Part shown: piece after piece, positions 5,539 through 63,449 of the stretch
How positions within the stretch are numbered: the stretch's first letter is position 1
Layout of the letters: each line of letters begins with the position of its first letter
Assembly (NCBI GenBank): GCA_001804805.1
Contig: MHBH01000072.1
Location: 1 to 64,000, forward strand
Origin: Lentisphaerae bacterium GWF2_49_21
Lineage (GTDB): Bacteria > Verrucomicrobiota > Lentisphaeria > Victivallales > GWF2-50-93
Direction of reading: 5' to 3'
Length of the DNA: 64,000 bases
Translations under genes and position numbers: made by a program
Notes under the pieces: generated by a model
Seen by the model: only the letters and a program-made list of their open reading frames with translations
What the model was told of the DNA's origin: nothing
The model's database searches: none

Positions 5539-6740
5539 ACAGGATGGAGACAATGACTAATCACGAGTCAATCCCGAATTCAACCATGTTATTTGGCGCG
5601 GAAGCCCCATTCGAGATGGCCGGGAAAGTAATCAATGCTTCGGCAACTGGCGGCTATCAGGCGGTCGACTTAAGGTACACTGAACATTATCCTGGCGCTG
5701 GAACATTCATCAAATCACTGGGGGCCTATTCCGAACAGATGTCCATTTTCAGGCAGTCCAGGACAAAATGGAACCAGCTTGTTTTCCCGAAAGGAAAGAC
5801 CTTGGTAAGAATTGGTTCGGTCAGGGAGAAAAATGACATAGTCATAGAAGATGATGGCGATGTCGATACCATCCAGACCACCATAGTCTATCTGGGCGAA
5901 AAGATTTTCATAATTGAAAGAGGTGTCAATAGCATCACATATGTCAACGGGGTACGGACACCGAACTCCCTCCTGGACGATAAAAATCCCATCCTCCTGT
6001 CAGTAGGCAAAACAAATTTCATCATCAGGCCGAAAAGAAGCATTCCAGCCAAGGACCATAAAAAGACCTGCACTTTTTCATTGAAGACTCCTTCCGGCGA
6101 GCAGCATGGCGAATTCAGCCGTTGCAATCTCATCGGTTCCCATGATGCCTGCGACCTGAAATTCGATGGGCCTGAATTCATCGGGATGATCCTCCCACAC
6201 AGAAAGAACATATACCTGATCCCCTTGTCCGAAATAAGATTTAACGGTGAGGCGATACCCATGGTACTGCCCTGCCATATGGATTCGGGAAATTTCATAA
6301 ACAGCCTGGGGGCGAATATTATCATTCCCGAAGGCCTGACTGACGGAATCGCCGATGCTTTCCACGCAAAGTCCCCGACAAGCTTCAAGTTCACGGAGAT
6401 TCTGGCAACTGAAGAGATAGGCAGGATCAAAATGAGACTTCCCCAGCCAGGAGCCACCTTCATCATAAGCAGGAAGAAATCACATGAATACTTCCATATA
6501 GAAAGCGAGTTCATATCGAGGGAGCATGCCCAGGTGATCGTATATGACAAATGCATCCGCGTTGAAGATCTCAAAAGCAAGAATGGAACTTATGTCAACG
6601 GGGAGAGGATAAAAAAGAAGGTTGTATACCCCGGCGACTTCTTCAGCGTCGGAGATAGGACATTCATTCTCGGTTATTCCGTAGAAGATGATCTGGCGGC
6701 TAAAACTCAAGATGTACAAGAGCCATTTACCGGACTGTAA
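5535..6740 (+). CDS. FHA-domain protein with a C-terminal FHA and two degenerate FHA-like units
   Basis: The C-terminal domain (about residues 305-385) is a clear forkhead-associated fold: FIISRKKSHEYF, then SREHAQV and KNGTYVNGERI, which hold the conserved Arg/Ser/His and Asn of the phosphothreonine pocket. Two earlier stretches look like diverged FHA units: residues about 92-170 (LVRIGSVREKNDIVI, ending TYVNGV) and 182-265 (CNLIGSHDACDLKF, IRFNGEAI). These lack most binding residues. FHA proteins read Thr phosphorylation in signalling or assembly. No kinase gene is adjacent in the window. The gene is coupled by a 4-base overlap to the DUF6232-like gene, suggesting a membrane-linked pair. 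There is no signal peptide. Confidence 0.8.
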   Translation: MNRMETMTNHESIPNSTMLFGAEAPFEMAGKVINASATGGYQAVDLRYTEHYPGAGTFIKSLGAYSEQMSIFRQSRTKWNQLVFPKGKTLVRIGSVREKNDIVIEDDGDVDTIQTTIVYLGEKIFIIERGVNSITYVNGVRTPNSLLDDKNPILLSVGKTNFIIRPKRSIPAKDHKKTCTFSLKTPSGEQHGEFSRCNLIGSHDACDLKFDGPEFIGMILPHRKNIYLIPLSEIRFNGEAIPMVLPCHMDSGNFINSLGANIIIPEGLTDGIADAFHAKSPTSFKFTEILATEEIGRIKMRLPQPGATFIISRKKSHEYFHIESEFISREHAQVIVYDKCIRVEDLKSKNGTYVNGERIKKKVVYPGDFFSVGDRTFILGYSVEDDLAAKTQDVQEPFTGL

Positions 6741-6899: not shown

Positions 6900-7763
6900 T
6901 CAGGAGATGAACTTATTTCCGTGGAATTCTTTCAGTGTCTCGTAAACGGAAAATGGTATGGCGAGATTTCCGTCGCCGGTTCCAAGCTCTATGTTTTTCA
7001 TGTTCACTCCGTGGAAATCGCTGCCGCCCGAAACTGCAAGGGAATATTTTCCCGCGAGTTCAAGAAGGCACTTGCTCTGTTCCGGGGAAAACAATGGATA
7101 ATATGCTTCCAGGCCGTCAAGCCCTTTACTCACAAGGAATTTCAGGAGTTTGTTGATTGTCTTCCTGTCGGCGTCGGCATAACTCATGGGATGCGCCCAT
7201 ATCGCAAGCCCTCCGGCGCTGTGGATGGCATCTATTGCTTCGGAAGGCATGGGCAGTTCGCGCTTGCAGTATCCCGACCTGCCACGCTTCAGACACTTGT
7301 CAAAGGCCTCCTGCATCGTCGAGAAATATCCTTTCTTGACTAGAATGCTGGCGAAATGAGGACGTCCGGGACATTCACCGCCCGCAAGTGCATTGACCTC
7401 CTCAATAGTAATATCATAGTCCTGTTTCTGGAGCTTGAGCGCAATCAGATCGTTCCTGGCGTTCCTGCCCTTGCGGATTTCGCAGAGCATCTTTTCAAGC
7501 GGTTCGGAACTGTGGTCAATGAAAAGACCGACCACATGTATGGAAAAATGATGATGTTTGACTGAGACCTCCACGCCAGGAACAACCTTGATACCTGGAT
7601 ACTTCTTTGATTCCCGGAGGAACTCATCGAGCCCGGAGGAAGTATCGTGATCCGTGAGCGCAAGGGCCGACAGCCCCTTCTCCTGCGCAAGAGAGAGAAG
7701 TTCTGCAGGACTCAATGTCCCGTCTGAAGCCGTGCTGTGGGTGTGAAGGTCAATTAACATCAT
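6900..7763 (-). CDS. PHP-domain phosphoesterase (RNase AM / nucleoside bisphosphatase type)
   Basis: From the ATG at 7763 (an upstream extension is AT-rich repeat-like DNA and unlikely to be coding) the product has 287 residues and begins MMLIDLHTHSTASDG. Metal-binding motifs of the PHP superfamily are all visible: LHTHST, LTDHDT, PHFAS, WAHPMSY and a C-terminal GGSDFHG. The size and the CPGRPHFASILVKKGY insertion match the YciV/TrpH branch, which acts on 3',5'-nucleoside bisphosphates and trims 5' ends of RNA. It is transcribed convergently with the FHA gene. The gene is complete. Exact substrate cannot be told from sequence. Confidence 0.85.
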   Translation of the reverse strand: MMLIDLHTHSTASDGTLSPAELLSLAQEKGLSALALTDHDTSSGLDEFLRESKKYPGIKVVPGVEVSVKHHHFSIHVVGLFIDHSSEPLEKMLCEIRKGRNARNDLIALKLQKQDYDITIEEVNALAGGECPGRPHFASILVKKGYFSTMQEAFDKCLKRGRSGYCKRELPMPSEAIDAIHSAGGLAIWAHPMSYADADRKTINKLLKFLVSKGLDGLEAYYPLFSPEQSKCLLELAGKYSLAVSGGSDFHGVNMKNIELGTGDGNLAIPFSVYETLKEFHGNKFIS

Positions 7764-7999
7764 AAAGATTATCGAACTCCGAATTTCGAATATCGAACAC
7801 CGAACGAACATCGCATGTTGAATATCGAACATACATTTAAATCTAAAATTGGAAATTAAAAAGACAAAAACCGGATAATTCCAAATTAAAGTTGTTTATT
7901 TCTCTTGACTAATTATAAATACATGTTAGTTTTTGCGCCTAATTTAGAAGTTTTCCATAGTTAAACTTATATTTTATTTACTAAGAACAGGGGTGTCCC
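7764..7999. other. AT-rich divergent intergenic region with GAATATCGAAC-type repeats
   Basis: This region separates the minus-strand PHP gene from the plus-strand dksA-like gene and must hold both promoters. Between 7771 and 7834 there are several related short units (ATCGAAC, TTCGAATATCGAAC, GAATATCGAAC), part of the family of simple ATC-rich intergenic repeats that recurs at 23.1 and 63.2-63.4 kb. A TTGACT near 7902 followed by AT-rich DNA may belong to the dksA promoter, but no good -10 at ideal spacing stands out. Confidence 0.5.
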
Positions 8000-8659
8000 A
8001 TGGCAAAAGCAAAATCGAAAAAGAAACCAGCCGCACAGGTCAAGAAGGCTCATTCATCTATAAAGAAAATCAAGGCCACGGTCAAAAAAGCGGCACCTGT
8101 GAAAAAGAAGGCTGTTAGGCCCGCGCCCCGGAAAATCATTAAAAAGGCCGTCAAGAAGACCGCAAAGGCTTCCATTGTCAAGACTCCGAAGTTCCTGAAG
8201 AAACTCAAACAGATCCCGATGGCAAGGCCTCTTGCGACTCCGACACCGCTCCACAAGATGCCAGCATTCAAAGGCCCGAAGAAAAAGTACTACGGATTGC
8301 TCATGGAGGCAAGAAGACAGTTCGAACAGCAGATCAACTTCCACTCGACTGAAGCACTTACGGCCCCTGGATCGGGAGGTGAACTTTCAAACAGCATGTC
8401 AAACCACATGGCTGATTTCGGAAGCGACAACTTCCTGCACGACATGGAGCTTGAAATGATGTCCAGCGAAGTCGAAGTCCTTGAGATGATCGACGAGGCC
8501 ATTGAAAGGCTCATCTCCGGCGAGTTCGGCAAATGCCTCGACTGCGGATGCCAGATCCCGGGGGAACGGCTCGACGCCAAGCCTTACGCCCGTTTCTGCG
8601 TCAAATGCAAGACGGCCAGGGAAGAGAACAACGGGCTTCGTCCTGAATTCAACCGTTGA
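8000..8659 (+). CDS. DksA/TraR-type zinc-finger protein with histone-H1-like lysine-rich N-terminus
   Basis: The first 70 or so residues are Lys/Ala/Pro-rich (repeated KKA, KKP, VKK), like bacterial histone H1-like tails, and should bind nucleic acid. The C-terminal half is a DksA/TraR family domain with the zinc finger CLDCGCQIPGERLDAKPYARFCVKC (C-X2-C-X17-C-X2-C) near residues 175-205. The preceding helical segment (about 95-170) is rich in acidic residues, but the paired Asp tip of E. coli DksA is not obvious. Such proteins can modulate RNA polymerase. The ATG at 8000 has AGGGGTG eight bases upstream. Its TGA overlaps the TTG start of lspA, so it heads a tight lspA-miaA operon. Confidence 0.8.
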   Translation: MAKAKSKKKPAAQVKKAHSSIKKIKATVKKAAPVKKKAVRPAPRKIIKKAVKKTAKASIVKTPKFLKKLKQIPMARPLATPTPLHKMPAFKGPKKKYYGLLMEARRQFEQQINFHSTEALTAPGSGGELSNSMSNHMADFGSDNFLHDMELEMMSSEVEVLEMIDEAIERLISGEFGKCLDCGCQIPGERLDAKPYARFCVKCKTAREENNGLRPEFNR

Positions 8660-9156
8660 AGCATTTTTTCAAAAGCCAGGTTGCATCAGTTCCGGCCATA
8701 CAATGCCTTTCAGTGGTTGCGTCCATACTGGTTCTCGATCAGCTGACAAAGATCCTGACCGAGCGCTGCATAACTTCATCCATCAGGATCATGCCCGGTT
8801 TCTTCAACCTTGTGTATGTGAAGAATCCCGGTGCAGCCTGGGGGATAATGGCCGGCAAGGGAATGATCCTGCTGCTTATATCCATAATCGTACTGATCCT
8901 CATATCCATCTTCATAAAAAGACTCACTGAAGGCTGGATGGAGCGATATTACGCCCTCTCTCTCATCTGCGGAGGCATCATTGGAAATTCCATCGACAGG
9001 ATAACGCGCGGAGCAGTCGTCGATTTCCTTGACTTCTATGCAGGTTCCTACCACTGGCCGGCATTCAATGTCGCAGACAGCGCAATCTGCGTCGGAGTTT
9101 TCATCTTCATTATTTCATCCTGGATACGCCCTCAGATTCAAGAAGAGAAAAAATGA
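8656..9156 (+). CDS. lspA: Lipoprotein signal peptidase (signal peptidase II)
   Basis: This inner-membrane aspartyl protease cleaves prolipoprotein signal peptides before the lipidated Cys. The 166-residue product has four hydrophobic segments and both catalytic Asp motifs: GNSIDRITRGAVVDFLDF and FNVADSAI. The NLVYVKNPGAAWGI segment is also conserved in the family. Translation starts at a TTG at 8656 that overlaps the stop of the dksA-like gene (TTGA), implying coupling. The stop overlaps the miaA start by four bases. The window encodes at least three lipoprotein substrates (16.5-17.8 kb). Product identity is firm. Confidence 0.95.
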   Translation: MKHFFKSQVASVPAIQCLSVVASILVLDQLTKILTERCITSSIRIMPGFFNLVYVKNPGAAWGIMAGKGMILLLISIIVLILISIFIKRLTEGWMERYYALSLICGGIIGNSIDRITRGAVVDFLDFYAGSYHWPAFNVADSAICVGVFIFIISSWIRPQIQEEKK

Positions 9157-10073
9157 AACTTGTAGTCATCTGCGGCCCGACTGCGGGCGGAAAAAGCGAA
9201 CTGGCCCTCGAAACAGCCTGCCGTCTCCGGGGTGAAATCATCACGGCAGATTCCATGCAGCTCTACAAGGGGCTTGCCATCGGCACCGCCAAGCCCGGAA
9301 AAGAGGAAAGGGCCAAAGTCCCGCATCATCTCCTGGATCTTTTCGACATCTCGGAAAGACTCGATGTCTTCCGCTATGTCGCCCTCGCAGAAACAGCCAT
9401 ACGCGAAATCCATGGGCGGGGAAATACTCCATTCGTTGTCGGAGGAACAGGAATGTATATCCGCGCACTGCTCTACGGACTAGATCCCCTGCCCTCGGAT
9501 TCCGGACTCCGTGCAAAGCTTGACATAGAATTCGACAATGAGCCGGGATTCGAAAAACTGAAAACGATAATGTCCGCCGGAGATCCCTTGGATTTCCAGC
9601 GATGGAAACAGCACAGGCGGAAACTCATCCGTGCGCTGGAAGTCTTCGAACTCACCGGCAAATCCATCACGGAACTGCAGAAGACCTGGAATGGCGCAGC
9701 GCTTCCGAAATATGACGTGTTCTCCCGGAAGCTTGTCTGGGACAGGGATGCCCTCAAGCAGCGGATATCGAAACGGACAGATGCGATGCTTGCGTCAGGA
9801 TGGATTGACGAAGCCCGGGAGATGAAAAGCCGTGGCCTGCTGACATCACCGACCGCCCATCAGGCGCTAGGATACAAGATCATTGCCGCACACCTTGAAG
9901 GAAAAATTGATTTTGAAACGGTGCGTGCAAGGATAGTCACGGAAACATGGCAGTTCGCCCGCCGGCAGATCACCTGGTTCAAGAACAAACATCCCGAATC
10001 ATTGCCCTTGGAAATGCCAGCGGATGCGGGAAGTTTAGCATCGGAAATAAAATCTTTCGCCTGTATTTCCTGA
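9153..10073 (+). CDS. miaA: tRNA dimethylallyltransferase
   Basis: The enzyme transfers a dimethylallyl group to A37 of tRNAs reading codons that begin with U. Conserved features are the P-loop GPTAGGKSE at residues 8-16, DSMQLYKGLAIGTAKP, PHHLLD, VVGGTGMYIRALLYG and HRRKLIRALEVFELTGKS. The C-terminal WFKNKHPES segment is also typical. At 306 residues it is of standard length. Its ATG overlaps the lspA stop (ATGA). It converges on the minus-strand zinc-ribbon gene, which ends 26 bp away, with no clear terminator between them. Confidence 0.96.
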   Translation: MKLVVICGPTAGGKSELALETACRLRGEIITADSMQLYKGLAIGTAKPGKEERAKVPHHLLDLFDISERLDVFRYVALAETAIREIHGRGNTPFVVGGTGMYIRALLYGLDPLPSDSGLRAKLDIEFDNEPGFEKLKTIMSAGDPLDFQRWKQHRRKLIRALEVFELTGKSITELQKTWNGAALPKYDVFSRKLVWDRDALKQRISKRTDAMLASGWIDEAREMKSRGLLTSPTAHQALGYKIIAAHLEGKIDFETVRARIVTETWQFARRQITWFKNKHPESLPLEMPADAGSLASEIKSFACIS

Positions 10074-10533: not shown

Positions 10534-11592
10534 CTATTCCTTTCCCATTTCGTAATGGCCGATGATCTCATTGTCGGAAAGAGCGCGCTTGTAAAGGAGG
10601 AACTCATCCATCCTGCCCTTGAAGAAGAATTTCAGGATAAGCTCATTACTGAGGACACCCACCTTGGTCTTGTCGTAAGTTGCCGGGCTCCAGTATTTCC
10701 TATAGCAACCTGCGGCTCCGAGTACAAGAGGCACATTGAGTCCGCTGCCGGAACATGCTTTCCATCCTGTTGCGGATGCAGTGCTTGGATTTTCGCTTGT
10801 AGTGTTGAGGAAATCACCGAGCGCCTGTCCGTTTATGAACGAAGTGATCTGCCCCGTCGGATCCCCGCTTGCATCCAGGCCAGTATGTTTGTATCTCAGA
10901 CCCAGCTGGACCCAGTTCGCCTTGTTGAAATTCACATGGGTGTCAAGCCAGGTGCCGCATGTCGTGAATACGTCCACATCAAAGGAGCCCTGCCCATAGG
11001 TTCCCGCATAGGGATTGGAATACATGTCGTACTGGCAGGCTGCATCAGTCTCAGTTCCCCAAAGCGACTTGGAGAAAGGGCAGTCGCCAAGTCCGAGCTT
11101 GTCGAATTTGACCCAGCACAGGACGGTGAAATCGTCAAAAGGCGAAAAATCCAGCCCCTGGGTGCCGGGGATCAGGATATATGTGTCGACTCCGTTGAAC
11201 TGCAGGGCGTATTTATATCCGTATTTCGCCCATCTTCCGCCGGACTTGATCCATTGAAAATTGTTGACCGTGGTGCTCGTGCTGTTGTTTTTCATGAGGT
11301 GGCCGTCATATTCATATGCCTTGAAATTCTCCACATCGGCACCGGCACAGATGTTGTTGAGCGTGTTGCCTGTCCCCTCCTGGAAGTTGAAGTTCACAAT
11401 ATTGGCTGGATCATTGGCGCACTGCCTGTTGAAGGCAAACCAGCGTACGAATTTCGCCCTGTCCTTGGCGCGGCTGATGGCAGGCAGCATAATAGCCATG
11501 AGTATTGCAAGCAGAAGTACGGCCATTGTAATTTCAATAAAATTAAAACCTCTGCGGAGAATCCGTCTCTTGAGTGTTTTTACAGTTTTCAT
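10534..11592 (-). CDS. Type IV pilin-like protein with C-terminal LamG/concanavalin-like domain
   Basis: The N-terminus is a prepilin signal: a long basic leader, then GFNFIEITMAVLLLAILMAIMLPAI, with cleavage expected after Gly15. The rest (about residues 60-345) looks like a LamG_3 (laminin G-like jelly roll) domain: VNFNFQEGTG, ALQFNGVDTYILIPG, FSPFDDFTVLCWVKF, then GRMDEFLLYKRALSDNEI. That last motif is the usual closing strand of LamG_3 domains. A carbohydrate- or protein-binding minor pilin is a reasonable reading. It has 352 residues and forms an operon with the downstream zinc-ribbon protein. No other pilus machinery is in the window. Confidence 0.8.
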   Translation of the reverse strand: MKTVKTLKRRILRRGFNFIEITMAVLLLAILMAIMLPAISRAKDRAKFVRWFAFNRQCANDPANIVNFNFQEGTGNTLNNICAGADVENFKAYEYDGHLMKNNSTSTTVNNFQWIKSGGRWAKYGYKYALQFNGVDTYILIPGTQGLDFSPFDDFTVLCWVKFDKLGLGDCPFSKSLWGTETDAACQYDMYSNPYAGTYGQGSFDVDVFTTCGTWLDTHVNFNKANWVQLGLRYKHTGLDASGDPTGQITSFINGQALGDFLNTTSENPSTASATGWKACSGSGLNVPLVLGAAGCYRKYWSPATYDKTKVGVLSNELILKFFFKGRMDEFLLYKRALSDNEIIGHYEMGKE

Positions 11593-12007
11593 GGCGCCAC
11601 CTCGCTTATTTATTTCAGCCCCTAAACCTATGTTGACCCTAATTTGATTTCAAGCATATTCGATGCCAATATTGGTTTAAAACTGAAAAATGAGCTCAAA
11701 ACGATATTTGGAAATACCACTTTGAACATCAAAGCTCAGGATTTTCCTGATGTGGCTTACGTGATTTACATTAAAGGCTATGGAAGGAGGGAGCTCGAAG
11801 GGATTCTGGATGACTGGCTGAAAATGACCGCAAGGCGCAAGGCTGTCCACGGCAAAGACATGACATGACATTATATCTCAAAATCAAGGATTAATCAAGG
11901 GCATTTTGCCAAAAACATGACCAATGATGCATATTTGACATTGCCGCCTTGATTTTTACAGGTATAAAAATATATTGAGGCAGATTAAAAAAATAAGGAG
12001 GCCTGCT
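11593..12007 (+). other. Intergenic region with a doubtful 74-codon frame and the leader of the repeat locus
   Basis: An open frame from a TTG at 11644 to 11868 translates as 74 residues without a recognised family and without a convincing ribosome site; it could be a gene remnant. The 3' part, about 11930-12007, leads the repeat-protein gene. It has TTGACA at 11935-11940 and a TATAAA at 11963-11968, but the 22-bp spacing is too long for a standard promoter. TTGCCG at 11941-11946 gives 16 bp. A strong AAGGAGG at 11995-12001 belongs to the TTG start at 12008. Confidence 0.4.
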
Positions 12008-12967
12008 TTGAAAATTCTAATTTCCCTTTTCCTGCTTTCAGCATCTCTCTGCGTATCAGCGCTTCCCCAGGGCGGAGCCTCCGACTCCAGTGGCAAGACT
12101 GAAGTCAAGGATTCGGTAATTGTCAATTCCAGCTCCGGAGTGAATATCGCGGTAGGGAACAGCAAGGTCAATTCAGGAATAAATGCCCAAGGCGCCGAAA
12201 TCAAAGACTCTACAATCATCAATAATACCGCCGGTGCAAATATCGCCGTTGGAAACAGCAAGGCTAATTCAGGTATTGACGCCAATGGTGCAGTAGTCAA
12301 GGATTCCCTGCTCCTCAATAATACCGCAGGAGCCACGATCGCCGTTGGAAACAGCAAGGCCAACTCAGGAATTGAGGCAAACGGCGCAACCATCAAAAAT
12401 GCAGCTGTCATAAACAACACCGCCGGAGCCACGATTGCCGCAGGCAACAGCCATGCAAACTCAGGCATCGAGGCCAATAATGCGAATATCAAGAATGCAG
12501 CCGTCGTAAACAATACCGCCGGGGCCACGATTGCCGCAGGCAATAGCCATGCCAATTCCGGAATCGAAGCAAACGGCGCAACCATCAAAAACGCGGCTGT
12601 CATCAACAATACTGCAGGCGTTACAATCGCCGCAGGCAACAGCCATGCAAACTCCGGTATCGAGGCCAACAATGCAAATATCAGCAACGCCGCCCTTGTC
12701 AACAATAATGCCGGTGCGACAATCGCTGTCGGCGGAGGCCATGCCAACTCAGGGATCGAAGCCAATAACGCCACCATAAAAAATACCGCCATTATAAACA
12801 ACAATGCCGGTGTTACAGCAGCATGGGCCGGTGGAAGCGCGAATTCCGGAGTAAAGCTTAACAATGCAACGGTCGACAGCACGCCTATAGTAAACACTAA
12901 TACCGGTGTAACTGTCAATGTCCTGCCTGGCTCATCTGTGAGCACAGGCGTAAATCTGGGGGATTGA
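12008..12967 (+). CDS. Secreted 32-residue tandem-repeat protein A (putative fibre/beta-solenoid subunit)
   Basis: A TTG start at 12008 is preceded by AAGGAGG at ideal spacing and gives a signal peptide, MKILISLFLLSASLCVSA. After a short Ser/Gly linker the protein is made of eight 32-residue units plus a 24-residue terminal unit ending TGVNLGD. The consensus pattern is NNTAG-x-TIA-x-GNS-x-ANSGIEAN-x-A-x-IKNA. Asn, Ser, Gly and alternating aliphatic residues recur at fixed positions, as in beta-solenoid or curlin-like subunits. There are no Cys and few aromatics. It is followed 42 bp later by a clear paralogue with 33-residue units. Known function: none that I recognise. A self-assembling surface protein is inferred from repeat regularity and the secretion-type neighbours. 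Confidence 0.75.
   Translation: MKILISLFLLSASLCVSALPQGGASDSSGKTEVKDSVIVNSSSGVNIAVGNSKVNSGINAQGAEIKDSTIINNTAGANIAVGNSKANSGIDANGAVVKDSLLLNNTAGATIAVGNSKANSGIEANGATIKNAAVINNTAGATIAAGNSHANSGIEANNANIKNAAVVNNTAGATIAAGNSHANSGIEANGATIKNAAVINNTAGVTIAAGNSHANSGIEANNANISNAALVNNNAGATIAVGGGHANSGIEANNATIKNTAIINNNAGVTAAWAGGSANSGVKLNNATVDSTPIVNTNTGVTVNVLPGSSVSTGVNLGD
12125..12964 (+). repeat. 96-bp coding tandem repeat, 8 full units plus a 72-bp terminal unit
   Basis: Units begin at 12125, 12221, 12317, 12413, 12509, 12605, 12701 and 12797, with the last partial unit from 12893. Divergence between units is moderate, mostly at third positions and at the K/H and V/A positions, so the array is older than the one in the next gene. 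Periodicity stays in frame throughout. Confidence 0.9.
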
Positions 12968-13009
12968 TTTCGAATTTAAAATAAAGTATTTAAACAGGAG
13001 GGAAAGAAG

Positions 13010-13909
13010 ATGAAAAGGTCGAAAATTCTGGTGATGGGAATCGCGGCGGCATTAACACTCACGGGAGTCTCCACATTTGGACTTCCTGGAGGCGAAGGCG
13101 GTGGTGGAGGCGGAACCACTGTCAAGGATTCAACAATCATCAATGAAAACGCCAACGTCACGAACCTTGCGGTCGGAAACTCCAAGATTAATTCCGGTAT
13201 CGAGGCGAAGGGTTCTGAAATCAAGGACTCCACTCTCATCAATGAGAACAAGAACGTCACGAACCTTGCGGTCGGAAACTCCAAGATCAACTCCGGCATC
13301 CAGGCCAATGGCAGCGAGATCAAGAACTCCACCCTCATCAATGAGAACAAGAACGTCACGAACCTTGCGGTCGGAAACTCCAAGATCAATTCCGGCATCG
13401 AGGCAAATGGCAGCGAGATCAAGAACTCCACCCTCATAAATGAGAACAAGAACGTCACGAACCTTGCAGTCGGAAACTCCAAGATCAATTCCGGCATCCA
13501 GGCCAATGGCAGCGAGATCAAGAACTCCACCCTCATAAATGAGAACAAGAACGTCACGAACCTTGCGGTCGGAAACTCCAAGATCAATTCCGGCATCCAG
13601 GCTGACGGCAGCGAGATCAAGAACTCCACTCTCATCAATGAGAACAAGAACGTCACGAACCTTGCGGTCGGAAACTCCAAGATCAATTCCGGCATCCAGG
13701 CTGACGGCAGCGAGATCAAGAACTCCACCCTCATAAATGAGAACAAGAACGTCACGAACCTTGCGGTCGGAAACTCCAAGATCAATTCCGGCATCCAGGC
13801 CAATGGCGCTGAAATAAAGAATTCTACGATCATAAACGAGAACAAGAACACCACGAATCTCGCGGTCGGCGGCTCTGAAATCAATTCAGGCGTCAATCTC
13901 GGAAACTAA
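13010..13909 (+). CDS. Secreted 33-residue tandem-repeat protein B (putative fibre/beta-solenoid subunit)
   Basis: Paralogue of the preceding gene. It has a signal peptide (KILVMGIAAALTLTGVSTFG), a Gly-rich linker (GGEGGGGGG), then seven 33-residue units of the form NENKNVTNLAVGNSKINSGI followed by QANGSEIKNSTLI, and a 24-residue cap ending SGVNLGN. The cap is the same length as in protein A. The AVGNS and NSGI blocks are shared by both proteins, while the residues between differ by one in length. Near-identity of units 2-7 at DNA level suggests recent unit duplication or gene conversion. The ATG follows AGGAGGGAAAGAAG. A strong hairpin lies between this gene and the next. High Asn/Ser/Gly content and lack of Cys fit a self-assembling extracellular protein; this is inference. 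Confidence 0.75.
   Translation: MKRSKILVMGIAAALTLTGVSTFGLPGGEGGGGGGTTVKDSTIINENANVTNLAVGNSKINSGIEAKGSEIKDSTLINENKNVTNLAVGNSKINSGIQANGSEIKNSTLINENKNVTNLAVGNSKINSGIEANGSEIKNSTLINENKNVTNLAVGNSKINSGIQANGSEIKNSTLINENKNVTNLAVGNSKINSGIQADGSEIKNSTLINENKNVTNLAVGNSKINSGIQADGSEIKNSTLINENKNVTNLAVGNSKINSGIQANGAEIKNSTIINENKNTTNLAVGGSEINSGVNLGN
13142..13906 (+). repeat. 99-bp coding tandem repeat, 7 full units plus a 72-bp terminal unit
   Basis: Units start at 13142, 13241, 13340, 13439, 13538, 13637 and 13736; the cap starts at 13835. The central units differ at only a few bases, mainly the IEANG/IQANG/IQADG codons. Short-read assembly could easily collapse or expand this array, so the copy number is uncertain. 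Confidence 0.92.
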
Positions 13910-13932
13910 ATTCCTTAAGAGAACAACTCCAT

Positions 13933-13965
13933 CGGGAAGCCCGGAGAAACGCTCCGGGTTTCCCG
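13933..13965 (+). promoter_or_regulatory. Strong intergenic hairpin between repeat protein B and the next gene
   Basis: Arms 13933-13946 and 13952-13965 pair over 14 positions with one G-T wobble and a 5-base loop (AAACG). There is no T-run after it, so it is not a standard terminator. It ends one base before the ATG at 13967. It could stabilise the upstream repeat-protein message, slow translation of the downstream genes, or both, so that subunit is made in excess over assembly factors. That role is inference. Confidence 0.6.
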
Positions 13966-13966
13966 C

Positions 13967-14377
13967 ATGGCTTATAAAATGAAAAAACATACAATAATTG
14001 CATCTGTCTTATTTTCCTTTCTGCTGGTTTATTCCGCTCCCGCAGGGCAGAAGGAGCTTATGGAGAAGAAAGTCAAGGAGCTTATCGAACTCAACAAGAT
14101 AGTCGTTGAAAAGAACATCGACCTCAAGAAATACAATAACCAGACCGTTTTCATAAAGGCGAAGCTCCTGCAGGTAACTGACACCGAGTACAAAGTCAAA
14201 GTCGAGGAGGTTTCCGCCGAGGCCATAAAGGATGAAGGCAAGAAGGATGATGACAGCGTCATAGTCAAGGCGAAGATATCCGAAAAGCCGGACAAGACGT
14301 TCTATTTGGACATTGAACACGTGCTCCCTCCTGAAAAGAAGGAATCAGATAAAAAAGAAAAGGAAACTACAAAATGA
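13967..14377 (+). CDS. Small secreted charged protein of the repeat locus
   Basis: The product has 136 residues from the ATG at 13967, or 132 from an in-frame ATG at 13979 that gives a more compact signal peptide (MKKHTIIASVLFSFLLVYSAPAG). The mature part is very rich in Lys/Glu with a predicted helical first third (KKVKELIELNKIVVEKNIDLKKYN) and a beta-like second third (QTVFIKAKLLQVTDTEYKVKVEEV). No family recognised. Its stop overlaps the next start by four bases, so it is coupled to the LPP20-like gene. A periplasmic accessory or chaperone role for the repeat proteins is possible but unproven. Confidence 0.7.
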   Translation: MAYKMKKHTIIASVLFSFLLVYSAPAGQKELMEKKVKELIELNKIVVEKNIDLKKYNNQTVFIKAKLLQVTDTEYKVKVEEVSAEAIKDEGKKDDDSVIVKAKISEKPDKTFYLDIEHVLPPEKKESDKKEKETTK

Positions 14378-15201
14378 GAACTGCAGCAATAATAATAATT
14401 GCCGGCCTGCTTTCAATAAACCTGTTTTCACAGGAGCAGATGGGCCCTGCAAACAAGAAGCTCAATTCGATAAACTGCGCCAAGGTGCTTGCCGAGCGGA
14501 ACATAGTTGAAACTGTATATGGCATCAAGCTGAGGTTCACCGAGGAAGTCAACAACATCCTTGAAGGCAGTTTCGAAGGTTCTGTTGAGACCAAGACCGG
14601 CAAGCGCACGATAAAAGGCATTGAGTTCGAACCGGTGAAATATGACGCTGAAAAGGATATTGCGCAGGCGACGGCAACACTGAAGCTGAAAAACATCTCC
14701 GACATCGTCGACAAGGAGAAGTTCAACATAGATAAGTTCCCGGAAAAAGTCATCAAGAGGACTGCGTTCGCAACTTCATCTCCCGACAAGGCGAGGAAAA
14801 TCGCTGCAATAAGGGCTGCGGAAATCGATGCCTACAAGAACCTGTACAAGAAGATCGGCGGATTCACGCTCGAAAGCAATACGAAAATTGAAAACTTCGT
14901 CCTCAAGTCGGAAAACGTGAAGGCATCTGTCATTGGCGCGCTCATGGGCGCTGACTTCATGGGCTTCACATGGGACGGAGAAGGCAACGATGCAATAGCA
15001 ACGGTGAAGCTGCGTATCAACGTCAAGGAGCTCAGCGAGATGATCGGTGAGAAGATCGTAGATGCAGACAAGGATTTTATCGAAGCAGAAGGACAAGGCG
15101 CCCAGAAATCCGCTGCCGCCTCCCCAAGGAAATCCAAGGACGAGGGGAAACAGGCCATGAAGACCGATATCATTGAAGGCAATATAAACGTCATGCCATG
15201 A
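14374..15201 (+). CDS. LPP20/FlgP-like periplasmic protein
   Basis: The 275-residue product has a signal peptide (MRTAAIIIIAGLLSINLFS) and no lipobox Cys. The core, about residues 130-225, reads KARKIAAIRAAEIDAYKNLYKKIGGFTL followed by TKIENFVLKSENVKASVIGALMGA and a beta strand ATVKLRINV. This is the usual pattern of the LPP20 lipoprotein/FlgP-like domain, found in outer-membrane-associated assembly factors. The N-terminal part appears to be a second, weaker copy of a related beta-rich fold. A Lys/Ser/Ala-rich tail ends the protein. It overlaps the preceding gene (ATGA) and precedes the FlgT-like gene by 54 bp. Confidence 0.7.
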   Translation: MRTAAIIIIAGLLSINLFSQEQMGPANKKLNSINCAKVLAERNIVETVYGIKLRFTEEVNNILEGSFEGSVETKTGKRTIKGIEFEPVKYDAEKDIAQATATLKLKNISDIVDKEKFNIDKFPEKVIKRTAFATSSPDKARKIAAIRAAEIDAYKNLYKKIGGFTLESNTKIENFVLKSENVKASVIGALMGADFMGFTWDGEGNDAIATVKLRINVKELSEMIGEKIVDADKDFIEAEGQGAQKSAAASPRKSKDEGKQAMKTDIIEGNINVMP

Positions 15202-15212
15202 CTCCCATCATG

Positions 15213-15242
15213 AGTAAACGACATAGTTTACTGAATACGTAC
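15213..15242 (+). repeat. 30-bp dispersed repeat with hairpin, copy 1
   Basis: This stretch begins AGTAAACGACATAGTTTACT, a 7-bp stem with a 6-base loop, and continues for ten more bases ending in GTAC. It is identical over 30 bp to 40885-40914. Here it sits 13 bp before the start of the FlgT-like gene, inside the operon. Confidence 0.85.
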
Positions 15243-15255
15243 AGGCAAACAAGGT

Positions 15256-16464
15256 ATGTCCACTATGAAATCATTATTATCCCTATTGCCGTTGCTTCTG
15301 GCGATTTCACTCCTTTCAACAGGACTTCAGGCGCAGGATGCCGGCGGCAAGGAAGTAACTGGTATCGGCATCGCCGATGGCGATCCGGACTCCGCTTCAG
15401 AACAGGCCCTGGCACAGGCCCTCCGGGACGCCGTGCGCAAAGGCGCGGGTATAGATGTCATGAGCGAAACAAAGGTGGAAAACTTCCAGACCGACTACGA
15501 CAGGGTACTCACATCCTCCTTCGGCTATGTGGAGAAATATGAGATTACCGGGCAGAACTATGACAGCAAGGCCAAGACATATACGGTAAAGATCAAGGCG
15601 CTTGTCACCAAGGGCACTCCTGGCATGGACAATGTAATGGCGTTGCGCCTTCTGATCAAACGTGTCGAATCGCCAAGGGTGCTCGTCCTCTGCGAAGAAA
15701 AGATAATAGGCCTTGATAACAAAACCCCGCTCGCAAACGACATAATCACTGAAATGGCCCAGAAGAACGGCTTCCAGGTGCTGGACAAGGAGGCCGTCGA
15801 CACACGTAGCGAGAAGGAGGCAAGAAGGGACGAATTGCTCGGGGATGACCGTTCTGCAAAGGTCAAGCGTGCCGGCATTGCAACGGCTTATGACATAATA
15901 ATAACAGGAACTGTGACTGGTGAAATCGGTGCGATTGAGGAGCCTTTTCCCGACATGAAAGCAAGGGATATTTCACTTGGATTCAGCTTGAAGGCGGCCT
16001 GGGCGGATTCCGGCGAGATGATTGCGGTCGCCAAGCTCCCGGCAGCGACATTCCAGGCGAAGGGACTCGATCCCGTCACCCTGCCCAACCAGCTCGCCAG
16101 AAAATATCTTGCCAAGATCCTCGAAGGACAAGACGTGGAACTCAAGGACGAAAACGCCTACAAGCTTTTCAGGAAGATAATTTCCAAATGGATTACTGAA
16201 CTCGACCTCGGCGCCAAAATCAGGGTGGAATTAAAGCAGATAGACAAGAAATCACTCGACGCCCTGATAGTTTCGCTTCAAAAGAGCAACTCCCCTATTT
16301 CCTATGTCTGGCTACGGGAGTTCGACAGCCGTCTCTTTTCGACAATTGAAGTTGAAACCCGGCTGACATCTGCGAAACTCGCAGATGAGATCACGAAAAA
16401 CCTTGGCGACAAGTATGTCCTTGATCAGTCAACCAGGAGAAATTTGAGGCTTATTCCAAAATAA
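15256..16464 (+). CDS. FlgT-N/CsgG-like secreted protein, putative outer-membrane assembly factor
   Basis: The 402-residue product has a signal peptide ending near LQAQDAG. Residues about 30-120 match the FlgT N-terminal/LPP20-type fold: EVTGIGIADGDPDSASEQALAQALRDAV, then FQTDYDRVLTSSFGYVEKYEI. Residues about 135-300 begin with RVLVLCEEK and contain a LANDIITEMAQKNGFQVLDKEAV helix and YDIIITGTVTGEI strand. This order is typical of the CsgG/TolB-N/FlgT-middle alpha-beta domain. A C-terminal domain of about 100 residues follows. FlgT supports the Vibrio flagellar H ring and CsgG is the curli pore; no flagellar or known curli gene is present here, so the likely client is the repeat proteins upstream. 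There is no lipobox, unlike CsgG. An alternative ATG lies 9 bp downstream. Confidence 0.7.
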   Translation: MSTMKSLLSLLPLLLAISLLSTGLQAQDAGGKEVTGIGIADGDPDSASEQALAQALRDAVRKGAGIDVMSETKVENFQTDYDRVLTSSFGYVEKYEITGQNYDSKAKTYTVKIKALVTKGTPGMDNVMALRLLIKRVESPRVLVLCEEKIIGLDNKTPLANDIITEMAQKNGFQVLDKEAVDTRSEKEARRDELLGDDRSAKVKRAGIATAYDIIITGTVTGEIGAIEEPFPDMKARDISLGFSLKAAWADSGEMIAVAKLPAATFQAKGLDPVTLPNQLARKYLAKILEGQDVELKDENAYKLFRKIISKWITELDLGAKIRVELKQIDKKSLDALIVSLQKSNSPISYVWLREFDSRLFSTIEVETRLTSAKLADEITKNLGDKYVLDQSTRRNLRLIPK

Positions 16465-16488
16465 ACACTGGAAAAACTGATTTCAGCT

Positions 16489-16516
16489 TTGACAAGGTTG
16501 TTATTCCGAATAATGT
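16489..16516 (+). promoter_or_regulatory. Possible sigma70-type promoter for the lipoprotein genes
   Basis: A consensus TTGACA (16489-16494) is separated by 16 bp from TAATGT (16511-16516), about 33 bp before the GTG start of the first lipoprotein gene. The -10 is imperfect and the spacing one short of ideal. It would allow the three lipoproteins to be expressed apart from the subunit genes. Confidence 0.4.
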
Positions 16517-16549
16517 TTACATCGAGTTATTTTTTTTAGGAGATACATT

Positions 16550-16915
16550 GTGAAAAAGCATATTGCCACCATTCTTGCAGCTGTTGTGCTGTGCCTTATA
16601 ACCAGCGGCTGCATCACTTCTCCTGGTGGAATTGCCCCTTCGACTGTTCCAATCACATCCAAGGACGCCTATACGATCATCAAGACAGATGCTTCAGCCA
16701 GCGACGGGGCGGTAGTGATCTTCGGAATCCCATTGAAACCAACCAGTGCGTATGACGCCCTCCAGACGGTAAAAACGAGCTACGGCGCCGACGCCCTCAT
16801 CAATGTAACACTGGAAAACAAGTCATACTGGATTACCCTTCTTCCAATAGTAACGTATTCAAAGATCTCGATCAGGGGTGACGCCATAAAATTCAACAGG
16901 GGAAAGGCTGATTGA
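16550..16915 (+). CDS. Small lipoprotein, first of a tandem pair
   Basis: The GTG start is preceded by TAGGAGA. The 121-residue product has a type II signal ending ITSGC, so the mature protein should be lipidated on Cys21 or so. The mature part contains GIAPSTVPITSKDAYTII and ADALINVTLENKSYW, both repeated with changes in the next gene, so the two are tandem duplicates. The pattern resembles small outer-membrane lipoproteins of the TRL-like/DUF6567 kind, which I cannot confirm without a search. It belongs to the repeat-protein locus by strand and spacing. Confidence 0.75.
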   Translation: MKKHIATILAAVVLCLITSGCITSPGGIAPSTVPITSKDAYTIIKTDASASDGAVVIFGIPLKPTSAYDALQTVKTSYGADALINVTLENKSYWITLLPIVTYSKISIRGDAIKFNRGKAD

Positions 16916-17271
16916 AAATGCTCAGGATCATCATATTTGTCCTTATGCTTGCACTACTTCCAGCCTGCACAACCGTAGTCGGCATATCTCCATCGACCAC
17001 TCCGATCACCTCGGAGGATTCGTATACTGTAATAGGTCCGGTAACTGGACGTTCGACAGGGGCGATCTGGTTTTTCATACCTACGATGCCTGACACGCCC
17101 TCCAGGAATGCACGTGACAACGCAATAGCCTCGAAGCATGCGGACGCTCTCATTGAAGTTACTGAGGAATACACCTCTTTTTCATTGTTGCTTGTGACTT
17201 TCGTATGGACTACTGTTGAAGGAACGGCTGTAAAAATCAAACGCGGGGGAGCGATAGGAGCTGAAAAATGA
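16912..17271 (+). CDS. Small lipoprotein, second of a tandem pair
   Basis: The start is a TTG at 16912 overlapping the previous stop, or an ATG two codons later. The lipobox is LLPAC. It shares GISPSTTPITSEDSYTVI, ADALIEVTEEYTS and a terminal AVKIKRGG with the previous gene, which sets the two apart as recent paralogues. Length is 119 residues. Its stop overlaps the ATG of the next gene by four bases. Function unknown; probably on the periplasmic face of the outer membrane. Confidence 0.75.
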   Translation: MKMLRIIIFVLMLALLPACTTVVGISPSTTPITSEDSYTVIGPVTGRSTGAIWFFIPTMPDTPSRNARDNAIASKHADALIEVTEEYTSFSLLLVTFVWTTVEGTAVKIKRGGAIGAEK

Positions 17272-17840
17272 AGATCTTGAGTCTATTTCTGCTGGTTTCA
17301 GCAACGGTCCTGATGACCGGATGCGGTTCAACCTATTATCTTAAGCATACACCCCAGGGCGCCGAGTTCTCCGCCGCCCAGCGTGGCGTTCTCACCGCCA
17401 ATAGAAGCAATGTGCCCTGCAGGGTCGAGGTGATCTGTCCCGATGACATGGTCGGGGAACTGGGACACTTCTCACTTGCACATTATCCGTTGAAGCAAAT
17501 CCTCAAGGATACCTTCAGCAATGCCGTATATGCATCTTTCAACCAGCCCGGGGGTGAAGTTGTCGATGCATTCACGCTGCAAGTCAATGTATTCAAGTCC
17601 GAGCTGGACATGCATGATGAAACCTACACGCTGGTATTGCTGATCACGCTCCAGGAGCCCGGGGAGAAGAAGGTACTCACCCTGCAACAGGAGAAGACCA
17701 TGCACGGCGAGGTGAAATCCGATGAACTTGTACCCGACATCGTCTATGATGCCGCAAAGGAGCTTGCAATAGAATCAGTGAAGGAACTTAAGACAAATCC
17801 CAAAGTCATAAAGACCGTCTCGAGGTTCGAAGAGAAATAA
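17268..17840 (+). CDS. Lipoprotein of the repeat locus
   Basis: The 190-residue product has a lipobox LMTGC at residues 15-19. The mature region has PLKQILKDTFSNAVYASF and LQVNVFKSELDMHDETYTLVLLITL, a layout reminiscent of small ABC-auxiliary or LptE-like lipoproteins, with alternating helix and amphipathic strands; this is only a resemblance. It is coupled to the preceding lipoprotein and ends 12 bp from a convergent minus-strand gene, closing the locus. Confidence 0.7.
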   Translation: MKILSLFLLVSATVLMTGCGSTYYLKHTPQGAEFSAAQRGVLTANRSNVPCRVEVICPDDMVGELGHFSLAHYPLKQILKDTFSNAVYASFNQPGGEVVDAFTLQVNVFKSELDMHDETYTLVLLITLQEPGEKKVLTLQQEKTMHGEVKSDELVPDIVYDAAKELAIESVKELKTNPKVIKTVSRFEEK

Positions 17841-17852
17841 GGCAGATCATTT

Positions 17853-18227
17853 CTACTCATCAAGCGTCCTGAGGCTTTTCATGCCCGGCTTCTGGCCATT
17901 CTCGTCCTTTCTGGCTTCCTTGTCTGCGACTATGTTGTCGGCATCTTCAATTAGGATCCACTGGACAGCACGACCGTTCCCGGCCTTGTCAACCTTGAGC
18001 ATCCAGACTTTCCCGGTGTAGGTGTCAAGCTTGAATACTGCGCTCTCCCTGTTTTCCCCCGGTCTTTCGCCATTGACAGTATAAGAGCCCCCGAAGAGGA
18101 TATATCTTGCAGTGTTTATCGTAGTCGTAATGTTCTGGGCTCCGCCCTCGCCTTTCTGCGCGAATGAAGCCGGGGTTGCCGCGAACAGGAGGACAGCTGT
18201 AACAAAAAGGCATGCCTTTGTCTTCAT
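17853..18227 (-). CDS. Small secreted protein with beta-rich domain
   Basis: Two adjacent ATGs are possible; the one at 18227 has AAAGGAG at better spacing. The signal peptide is KTKACLFVTAVLLFAATPASFA. The mature part (about 100 residues) contains ARYILFGGSYTV, SAVFKLDTYTGKVWML and AVQWILIED, a pattern seen in many small secreted proteins of this phylum in which a sequence of the type RVDTYTGKVW forms one beta hairpin. Function unknown. It converges on the lipoprotein operon. Confidence 0.7.
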   Translation of the reverse strand: MKTKACLFVTAVLLFAATPASFAQKGEGGAQNITTTINTARYILFGGSYTVNGERPGENRESAVFKLDTYTGKVWMLKVDKAGNGRAVQWILIEDADNIVADKEARKDENGQKPGMKSLRTLDE

Positions 18228-18316
18228 CATGAACTCCTTTATTTATAAACATGTATTTTCAAATCACCGTAATAAGATTGTGCTTTTACCGGCAAAGTCA
18301 AATAAGCCAGACCAGT

Positions 18317-40964: not shown

Positions 40965-43900
40965 CTACTTCACGAATGCCGCTGAGAGCACGTTGATGAT
41001 CCTGGCGCCGTCGTCTATGGACACCTTGGACTTTTTGGTGAGGATGCCGGAATACTTGCCGCCGTCCGTGACCGCATCCTGAGTCCCAGCTGCGATCTTC
41101 GCAAGGATTTCGAGCTTCTCACCCGGAATCAGGTAGATGTCAAGGCCATCGGCGACATCGTCGAAGTTGCTGAGCGCCGCTACGGAGACGATTCCTATCT
41201 TTCCTCCGATGATCTCGGCCTCCTGCGTGGCATCAATGATTCCCTGCGTCCTTAGGTTGGCCAGGACGGCGACCATCTTGTCCGGTGCCACATGTACGGA
41301 GAACGGAACTGATGAGAGCGCCGAAGTGGAGGTCTTGTCGTTGCCGACACCCGCGCCTTCTACGCCGTAGAAGAGCATGTAGAGGCCCGAGTCAATCTTT
41401 GCGGCGAGTTGTGCGTCTTCGCCAGTCTTGAGGATGGTGTTCTCCACCCACATGTCTTCGTAGGCAGGGACTATTGCGTCCTCGTCCCATCCGTTGCGGG
41501 AGTCGAGGAAGTTCTGGAGACCCATGATGTCGGCCTGGAGCGTGACAGATACCGGTGCGGCCGGCAGGAACGCCGAGGAGTCGAAGAAGTTGTTCACCTC
41601 AAGACATCCCTTCTTCGTCGCCACCGTGTGGCTTGCCGTGCCCTTGGCGACATCGGGCATCGTCGTGAAGAAGAAGTCGAAGGTGTGTGTCCCTTCTAGG
41701 CCTATCGTCGTGGAGTAGGCAAAGTATCCGGTTGCATCCGTGTTCGCAAGTACCGAGGTAATTCCTGTTATCGGGTTCCTGACCTTCACCTGCATGCCGG
41801 GGATGCCCGTCGCGGGAATGGACTGGTCTATTACCCTGCCCTTGAACACGGCCGTGAACGGGGCCACCTGATCATTGGCCGGAACCTGCGTCAGGATGAT
41901 GTCCACCGCCGAATAACAGTTCACGGTCAGCGTAACATTCGTGTAACCCAATGTCGATACTCCGTACAGCAGGAAGTACCATGTGCCTGCAGCAGGCTTG
42001 GTGACGGTCAGGGATTCTCCGGTGGCCGACTCAATGCCCTTGGCGTTGCTGGAAATGGTCGTCGGCAGCGAGCCGAACTTGGCGTAGAGGTCGCAGTCGT
42101 TGAGTATAGCGTTCGTGGTGCCTGTCAGCTTGGCGACAAGCCTCGTGGTTCCTGCTGGGACGTCTATCGAATAATACGCGCAGCTGTCCTTGGTACCGGC
42201 AATGTTGGCGATCGGGACGTTGTCCGCTACCGCAGTCGTTATGCCTAGGACGCGGCCTTGCGCGGGCGTAGTGCTCTGGGGACTGGTCTTTGGGATTGTG
42301 TCGTTGTTCGACTTGATCCAGTAATAGTAGAGGACGCCGGGAACCGCAGTTCCTGCAGCAGGCGCCAGATCGTCATATGTAAGGCCTGTGACTTTTGCCA
42401 GCTGTACTCCGGTGAACACGTTGGTGGTGTTCCTGTAGATGATGTAGTTCTCAGCGAGCGGCACCTCGGTCCAGGTGAGCCGCACCTTGTCAGTATAGAC
42501 ATCCTTGCTCGCCGTGAGCGTCGGAGCCGCCAGGCTCGCGATCGTCGGAAGTTTGTAGGCGTACCCTTTGGCGATTGCGCTCGCATTGCTGGTATATGCC
42601 CCGAAAATAGCCTTGACGATATAGTCGTGGCTGATGGTGTCCCCAGGAACATCGTCGTACTTTGTCGCGGCGATGACAATTACGCTCCCTCCATCACGGA
42701 ACAGCTCGTAGCTGGTCGCTCCTGTGACTGCGGCCCAGGTCACCCGAACCTTCCCGTAAAGCGTTCCGGCTGTCGCGGTGATGGTCGCCGGTCCTGTGAG
42801 GCTTATGTGTTTTCCGGTCACTGTCGTGCTGTAGTTAGTCGTGCAGCCGGTGGCGTCGAGTTTCGCCTTGATCCTGTAGAAGTATGGCGTATTGGCCGCA
42901 GCGGCAGTGTGATCATAGACTATGGCACCAGGTACGTTTATCGCTGCATGGGCGTTGGCGAATGTGTTGACGGTGTCCCAGTAGACATCGTAGCTTGTGG
43001 CTCCAGCAACCGCCGTCCATGACAGGTGCACCTTGCCGAAGTATGTTCCCGCGCTCGCGGTGACTGTCGGACCGGGCATCAGCTTGTGGTATCCGGACCC
43101 GGCAGTGGTGTTGAAGTCGCTCGTGTAGAATGTGGAATACTTCGCCTTGACCTTGTAGTAGTAGACGTTGTTCGGCGGCGTGATGACAGTCTGCATCAGG
43201 GCCGACGTGTCGTCGTACAGGAGCGTTGGCGCCGCGATGTCCGCGAAGATGGCCTGGTTCAGCGTGCAGCCCTTGTCCGTGTAGCGGTACACATCGTATC
43301 CCGTCGCTCCAGGAACCGCCGTCCATGTCACGCGCACCTTGCCGAACAATGTGCCCGCAGTTGCGCCGACCGTTGCAGGCCCGGCCTTCTTGACCGCGCC
43401 GGTGTTCGGACCCTGTTTCAGGGCGCTTTCACCGTTGCCGTTCAATGCGCTGACCCAGTAGAAATAGCTCCTGGAAGGATTCGGATCAGGATCTGCGAGA
43501 TCCGCAGAGTCGTTGTACGTGTATGCCGCGAGGACGGGATTTGACTGGACCGTGACGAGCAGGTCTGCGGATATCGCTGTCCCGCCGGACAGGTAGGCCA
43601 GCCCTGTCGTCTTCACCGGTACTGAGAAACTGTTGTCGTCGATTTTGGTGACAACGAAAGATTTTCCGTTGAGAGGAGTGGACATCGTACCCGCCACTCC
43701 GCTTATCAGTACCGTGTCGCCGGTCGCAAATCCATGGGAGTTCGAGGTTATATCACTCTTGTTGACGTTGCTTACGATGCCAGTTATCGTCTCGAGCGTG
43801 GCAGTTCCTCCGGGCAGATAGGTCCTGGCCAGTGTGCTCACTGGCACCGAGAAGTTGTCAGCATCTACCACCGTAATCACATGGGATTTCCCATTCAAAA

Positions 43901-49085: not shown

Positions 49086-49256
49086 AGTGTAACGCTCCGT
49101 AATTAATTGAGCAAAATGCAAAATTTTCAATTTAAAGGAGCGCGGGTTTTCTTACCCGCGAAAATCTATTTAAAATGGCGGACAAGAATGACCGCCCTCC
49201 TTTATTTTGAAACTCCATTCTATTATGAGACTATTAGTAACTCTTGCCTTTTGATC

Positions 49257-63404: not shown

Positions 63405-63449
63405 ATCAAGTATCAAGTATCAAGTATCAAGTATCAAGTATCAAGCATC
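63405..63449 (+). repeat. Six ATCAAGT units (7-bp period)
   Basis: Five perfect ATCAAGT units, one ATCAAGC and a final ATC. The array ends on the stop codon of the export gene. Similar CAGTATC/AAGTATC words occur at 23.12-23.15 kb. Confidence 0.9.

Follow-up and report, generated by a model that had tools for sequence, protein, structure and literature searches.

Few dedicated routes for the secretion of fibres are, to our knowledge, known in diderm bacteria. In curli, uncapped beta-solenoid subunits polymerise, and 98% of the genomes with csgA also carry csgG (PMC10192328); the curli of Alphaproteobacteria also occur without CsgE (PMC3521004). In Fap, the subunit FapC consists of 38-39-residue repeats that each form one solenoid layer and carry Asn ladders (PMC12392863). 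Ring proteins of the outer membrane are described from flagella, and FlgP makes concentric outer-membrane rings in the flagella of Campylobacter (PMC12222027). Searches for curli begin from the curlin repeats, so that systems with unrelated subunits are missed. Here we analysed a gene cluster (genes A to I) in a window of 64,000 nucleotides, the whole stretch of DNA under study, which lies on contig MHBH01000072.1 (C72) in the 5.9-Mb genome of Lentisphaerae bacterium GWF2_49_21. The cluster probably belongs to a curli-like fibre system of Lentisphaeria, in which solenoid subunits would be exported by a CsgG-type pore and assemble into stacked fibres on the cell surface. This view is based on the linkage and co-occurrence of the genes, on predicted folds, on kinship to the CsgG family and on signal peptides. 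A sequence-only reading of the window had proposed a locus for the production and export of a fibre of curli-like or beta-solenoid type. This is now the best-supported reading; its CsgG candidate had to be corrected, and export and fibre formation are stated conditionally.

Two adjacent proteins with repeats of 32 and 33 residues, A and B, had been recognised from the sequence, and this was confirmed. Tandem Repeats Finder detected a 96-bp period in A and a 99-bp period in B (7.2 copies, 92% match, score 1157, far above chance), and each protein contains eight NSG[IV] motifs, spaced by exactly 32 residues in A, which ends in STGVNLG, and by exactly 33 residues in B, which ends in NSGVNLG. The 24-residue C-terminal "cap" of the sequence-only reading is really an incomplete last repeat, broken off at the NSG turn, rather than a separate cap; aligned orthologues end alike. 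The repeats of B were predicted to be ordered rather than disordered: the AlphaFold2 (AF2) model was an eight-coil beta-solenoid with a predicted local distance difference test score (pLDDT) of ~99 from residue 37 to residue 299; it lacked a cap domain, and its Gly-rich start was disordered. Foldseek comparison of this model returned nothing below E 1e-3 and otherwise only pentapeptide proteins and beta-solenoids of a generic type; we therefore assign B to no fold family. Pfam matches to B (OST_P1, DUF4472, T2SS-T3SS_pil_N) were artefacts of short repeat stretches, its sole PDB sequence match, a designed ankyrin, was also a repeat artefact, and plasmid searches using B gave no match.

For near-perfect repeats, AF2 is known to draw confident but false solenoids, which betray themselves by buried charges (PMC11795689). 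Because of this, repeat units of relatives were aligned and their charge pattern was analysed, with units taken from 35 proteins, nearly all from other genomes or loci, and 125 distinct units kept; unit positions 1, 32 and 33 were not used, being biased by local alignment. Fifteen positions (2, 4, 6, 10, 12-16, 18, 21, 23, 26, 28 and 30) were charged in at most 1% of the 125 units and were strongly conserved as N, S, G, A, V, I or L, and most positions alternating with them were charged in 17-71% of units. This in-out pattern of aligned residues fits a real solenoid with Asn ladders, independently of AF2. Orthologues held the position code of the unit at 50-60% unit identity, and the number of units ranged from ~4 to 10 among B orthologues, as expected if the subunits stack. 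A is probably a fibre subunit, and B is probably the main one. An LP motif directly after the signal peptide was present in 33 of 48 repeat proteins and in 6 of 79 other secreted proteins; it may be an N-terminal export signal and is treated as a lead only, since the repeat proteins are paralogous and the motif may reflect shared descent.

The surroundings of the repeat genes were compared with those in relatives, including the Lentisphaerae/Victivallales metagenome-assembled genomes GWF2_50_93, GWF2_44_16 and GWF2_45_14. Presence was counted in 198 genomes of the class, the wider search for CsgG-like proteins covered 388 genomes of the phylum, and E was searched for in 41 genomes; G000 denotes this genome, G001 a sister species, and L-numbers are stretches of DNA from this or other genomes. 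Clear E orthologues were found in nine of the 41 genomes, and the DNA around them showed that the order B C D (X) (Y) E F G H I was kept in several families of the order. X encodes a secreted protein of ~250-290 residues and Y a DUF2807 protein (E 3e-22) with one solenoid repeat at its N-terminus; both are absent from the window copy. The full run of A-like, CsgGa, CsgGb, B, C, D, X, Y, E, F, G, H and I was also observed in several families, and the cluster order was kept across Lentisphaeria families in 16 of the 198 class genomes. An A-like repeat gene and two CsgG-like genes lay upstream of B in G013, G020, G022, G294 and G333, the CsgG pair was followed by two B-like genes in G219, and the CsgG pair and the B cluster were located on one contig and one strand in G001. 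The neighbours grouped with the repeat genes in the sequence-only reading were therefore linked to repeat proteins in related genomes.

Co-occurrence pointed in the same direction. The CsgG-like core was found in 17 of the 198 class genomes and B in 16, and every one of the 16 B genomes carried a CsgG-like gene (hypergeometric P 1.2e-22; 5e-13 by genus; both values are optimistic because the genomes are related). Strong D matches were present in 17 genomes. Across the phylum genomes, the CsgG-like family was limited to the class, except for one weak match. In addition, a second module, in which a B-like gene, an X-like gene and a gene for an LCAT-type lipase lipoprotein stand in a row, was found in G000 (contig C63), G002, G027, G216 and G219 (Table 1), which suggests that several subunits may share an exporter.

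The protein encoded by E had earlier been taken as FlgT-N/CsgG-like. E proved to be FlgT-like, and the CsgG-like proteins are encoded by a separate gene pair outside the window, which in this genome lies on contig C39 together with Y and two A-like genes and in relatives adjoins the repeat genes. The CsgG-like lipoproteins of relatives are 524 and 493 residues long and match only TPR models in Pfam; one of the two paralogues carries TPR repeats. The C39 copy was modelled by AF2 with a mean pLDDT of 76.8, and in the Foldseek search of this model ranks 1-23 were all E. coli CsgG (4uv2, 6l7c and 4q79 among them), with a best E of 3.2e-6 and a probability of 1.00. A divergent orthologue, L116:5281-6576 in G327, matched the CsgG family PF03783 directly (34.1 bits, E 2.2e-8, cut-off 20.8) and has repeat genes, C, D and an E-like gene as neighbours; the L117 member scored 18.6 bits, near the cut-off. 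With hhalign, a widened CsgG-like alignment matched residues 51-197 of E. coli CsgG at E 4e-4, a stretch that includes the region of the first membrane hairpin of CsgG. The narrow alignment gave a weak E of 0.011, with 0.099, 0.13 and 0.51 for the controls D, E and CsgG-versus-E, and hmmsearch of the CsgG-like profile against PDB listed CsgG only at E ~0.9. The Ser-Cys of the lipobox was kept in all 17 aligned CsgG-like sequences. The fold match and the one direct family match (L116) support the view that the C39-type pair is distant kin of the CsgG family, and we infer that it would form an outer-membrane pore. Other CsgG-domain genes of this genome with PF03783 (on C5, C17 and others) are different from the C39 pair and were set aside.

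D and E resemble ring proteins. The LPP20-like character noticed earlier for D was borne out by the D family profile, which matched solved FlgP structures (E 1.2e-4); the match to Pfam LPP20 (6.4e-4) was under the cut-off. The window copy of E matched FlgT_N weakly (E 0.0016, 19.3 bits), its orthologue L025 passed the FlgT_N cut-off (29.4 bits versus 28.8, E 1.2e-6), and the E profile matched an LPP20-like lipoprotein of solved structure (E 1.2e-3). E therefore has a domain of the FlgT_N/LPP20 type, as the FlgT part of its first annotation had it; the middle and C domains of FlgT were not detected in E. The two proteins also matched one another across the SHS2-type domain (8.7e-5). Because no match to the P-ring gene FlgI was found in this genome or in G001, G002 and G014, all of which have the system, D and E do not appear to be flagellar here. 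Paralogues of E with an additional C-terminal transmembrane helix are encoded away from repeat genes at L020:1401-2774 (this genome, contig C49) and L023:4656-6038.

Compared with curli, the system shares secreted tandem repeats rich in N, G and S, a predicted uncapped beta-solenoid and a flexible Gly-rich N-terminus in B, and, in relatives, the linkage of subunit genes to a CsgG-family lipoprotein. It differs in that a unit of 33 residues (32 in A) replaces the curlin unit, in its two CsgG-like paralogues, and in having FlgP/FlgT-like proteins and the F-G-H lipoproteins in place of CsgE and CsgF. Neither A nor B matched curlin (PF07012), and the B profile showed no similarity to E. coli CsgA. 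As curli of Alphaproteobacteria tolerates the loss of CsgE, subunit identity is the stronger difference. With Fap, the repeats share the Asn-rich character and the single repeat per solenoid layer; the exporter here is CsgG-like, however, and the ~4-10 units are directly tandem, without long linkers. No Pfam or NCBIfam match to Fap proteins (FapB/FapC repeats, FapF porin) was found in the locus. D and E bear SHS2-type domains as do the FlgP/LPP20 and FlgT flagellar ring proteins, and differ from these in their linkage to repeats and the CsgG-like pair, in the missing P-ring gene, and in the additional conserved N-terminal domain of D. E and F resemble the models of Leptospira LipL46 and LIC20211 (~1e-5 and 3e-10), far below curated cut-offs; we know of no repeat-protein context for these two. 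The CsgG-like domain is also shared with an Azospirillum pAZO_p4 lipoprotein with CsgG-like, PG_binding and DUF4384 domains (22.9% identity, E 4e-7), which differs in its tail domains and its neighbours (OmpA, FHA), and whose nearby repeats have no established homology to B. On this A. lipoferum plasmid AZO_p4 (L154), a small secreted protein with two repeats (5588-5881) is encoded ~1.7 kb upstream of the lipoprotein (7587-9158). The linkage comes from one record only and is possibly another CsgG-linked repeat system in Alphaproteobacteria.

Taken together, the system would work like curli yet is not classed as curli, having neither curlin repeats nor CsgE. The subunit family looks new, and the exporter appears to be distantly related to the curli pore; our searches of the open-licence literature gave no account of a comparable system from Lentisphaeria. 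At somewhat short of even chances, we also put forward that it is a separate fibre class beside curli and Fap, defined by subunits of 33 residues per coil, a heteromeric pore of two CsgG-like paralogues (one TPR-tailed), a FlgP/FlgT-type ring, and further subunit genes scattered beside X and a lipase-like lipoprotein.

In the proposed mechanism, A, B and their relatives would reach the periplasm by their Sec signal peptides and remain unfolded there; their way out would be a pore in the outer membrane, formed by the pair of CsgG-family lipoproteins. Outside the cell, the subunit would fold as an uncapped beta-solenoid and stack end to end by sheet extension into a fibre. D and E may support the pore at the outer membrane as a ring or collar. 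Y, as an adhesin-type protein with one solenoid repeat, may act as nucleator, anchor or tip of the fibre, which could serve in adhesion or in a matrix.

Several observations weigh against a fibre system of this kind. In GWF2_49_21 itself, A and B are not linked to the CsgG pair, the C39 model overlays CsgG loosely (TM score ~0.4-0.5 by target, root-mean-square deviation 8-14 A), and typical CsgG-like members score below the Pfam CsgG threshold, with no PF03783 match in the others examined singly. Proteins with a CsgG fold need not be pores. The units of B are 94% identical to each other, which is the type of input prone to false AF2 solenoids. CsgE (PF10627) was not found in the whole genome, with a positive E. 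coli control, and none of the locus proteins scanned matched a CsgE, CsgF or curlin model; the result for CsgF refers to Pfam scans of these locus proteins, as a genome-wide search for it was not made. The genomes belong to one class, and the linkage is not independent evidence for each of them. G021 has a CsgG-like gene without B, so the CsgG-like family may have other clients. That the pore exports A and B, that the subunits polymerise, that D and E act as a ring and what the fibre is for are all deduced from genes and models.

The pore could also export solenoids that stay unpolymerised, as rods or adhesin stalks tethered by the F-G-H lipoproteins into a surface coat. The cluster does hold three lipoproteins and a DUF2807 adhesin-type protein, and some relatives join a few solenoid repeats to a large other domain (proteins of 835 and 846 residues). 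We nevertheless consider this unlikely, as B has no cap domain at either end and uncapped solenoids that accompany a CsgG pore are, by precedent, ones that polymerise; fibres are preferred over single stalks because this is what such solenoids do in curli, where nearly all csgA genomes have csgG (PMC10192328). A more improbable view is that D, E and the CsgG-like pair are non-pore periplasmic scaffolds or outer-membrane stabilisers in envelope assembly and the repeats are periplasmic or matrix parts. CsgG-fold and FlgT/LPP20 domains are known in non-pore envelope proteins, Chlamydia CT253 is among the Foldseek matches, the SHS2 fold is common to LPP20, FlgP and FlgT, and G011 and G032 carry D and E without repeats or a CsgG-like gene. 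CsgG, however, had an E-value about three orders of magnitude better than that of CT253, the CsgG alignment spans the region of the first membrane hairpin of CsgG, and the CsgG-like gene occurs in every B genome.

That D and E are FlgP/FlgT-type motor ring proteins of flagella, with the repeat proteins as incidental neighbours, is very improbable: the profiles match FlgP structures and FlgT_N and some genomes with the system are also flagellated, yet FlgI is missing from the four genomes named above, and D and E travel with the repeats and the CsgG-like gene rather than with flagellar genes. We give as little credence to a low-complexity repeat expansion without special function among ordinary envelope genes. 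The nearly identical units of B look as they would after a recent expansion, and against this stand the position code held by diverged orthologues, strict synteny and co-occurrence.

The eight genes A to H described from the sequence were all found on the + strand, near the positions first assigned, with the three lipoproteins F, G and H among them (Table 1). Overlaps of the ATGA type are present between C and D at 14374 and between G and H at 17268, and the F/G overlap is TTGA at 16912. C is a candidate periplasmic partner. F and G are lipoproteins related to each other and, by model comparison, close to LIC20211 of Leptospira. Gene I, which the sequence-only reading did not include, is a member of the conserved cluster; it is inverted in this genus and lies on the same strand as H in other genera.

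Table 1. Coordinates of the fibre-cluster genes in the window and of associated loci in this genome and its relatives.
Feature	Position	Strand	Description
A	12008..12967	+	secreted tandem-repeat protein, 32-residue units; best start TTG 12008, 6 bases downstream of ribosome-binding site AAGGAGG at 11995
B	13010..13909	+	secreted tandem-repeat protein, 33-residue units; predicted uncapped 8-coil beta-solenoid
Solenoid part of B	13118..13906	+	residues 37-299; flexible Gly-rich LPGGEGGGGGG N-terminal to solenoid
C	13967..14377	+	small secreted protein, 136 aa; kept beside D
D	14374..15201	+	LPP20/FlgP-like (SHS2-type); family-specific N-terminal domain; periplasmic or outer-membrane ring candidate
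E	15256..16464	+	FlgT-like; N-terminal domain of FlgT_N/LPP20 type; ring candidate
F	16550..16915	+	lipoprotein, LIC20211-like kind
G	16912..17271	+	lipoprotein, F paralogue
H	17268..17840	+	lipoprotein, 190 aa; kept in cluster
I	17853..18230	-	small secreted protein, kept at cluster end
Second-module loci	L019:6736-9558; L142:4794-7804; L146:4270-7089; L148:4467-7800; L150:3989-6669		B-like gene, X-like gene, LCAT-type lipase lipoprotein
FGE-sulfatase loci	L065:10300-12168 (PF03783 9.5e-6); L063:3323-5257; L112:16478-18409		secreted protein with CsgG/FlgT_M-like domain; may belong to cluster

Further genes were observed around the cluster copies. In several genomes, a secreted FGE-sulfatase protein with a CsgG/FlgT_M-like domain is encoded directly upstream of the A-like gene and may belong to the cluster. 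Between CsgGb and B, a gene for an RHS-repeat protein is followed by one for a protein of 835 or 846 residues with a few solenoid repeats at its C-terminus (L021:8295-13868 in G001 and L028:3-4614 in G014). A divergent cluster copy in G174 has a caspase-domain (Peptidase_C14) protein at L117:5257-6762, near the CsgG-like and D genes. In the window itself, a LamG-like domain joined to a prepilin-type N-terminus (GFxxxE motif) is encoded divergently from A (10534-11592, - strand). The - strand also encodes a secreted protein of 2721 residues with a peptidase M6 domain, PPC and HYDIN-like Ig domains (40965-49130), and a 4387-residue protein with DUF4347 (49701-62864), inside which lies a direct repeat of 258 bp (51510-51990). 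An ATCAAGT tandem repeat with a 7-bp unit, not a multiple of three, is present in 6.4 copies at 63405-63449.

The case brings together a remote CsgG family, a new type of solenoid repeat and ring proteins whose other known setting is the flagellum. It would be an example of the CsgG pore reused for unrelated solenoid cargo, and the very regular 33-residue solenoid is a possible scaffold for biomaterials. It would also give a surface biology to the Lentisphaeria, whose genomes here are mostly metagenome-assembled and from uncultured members.

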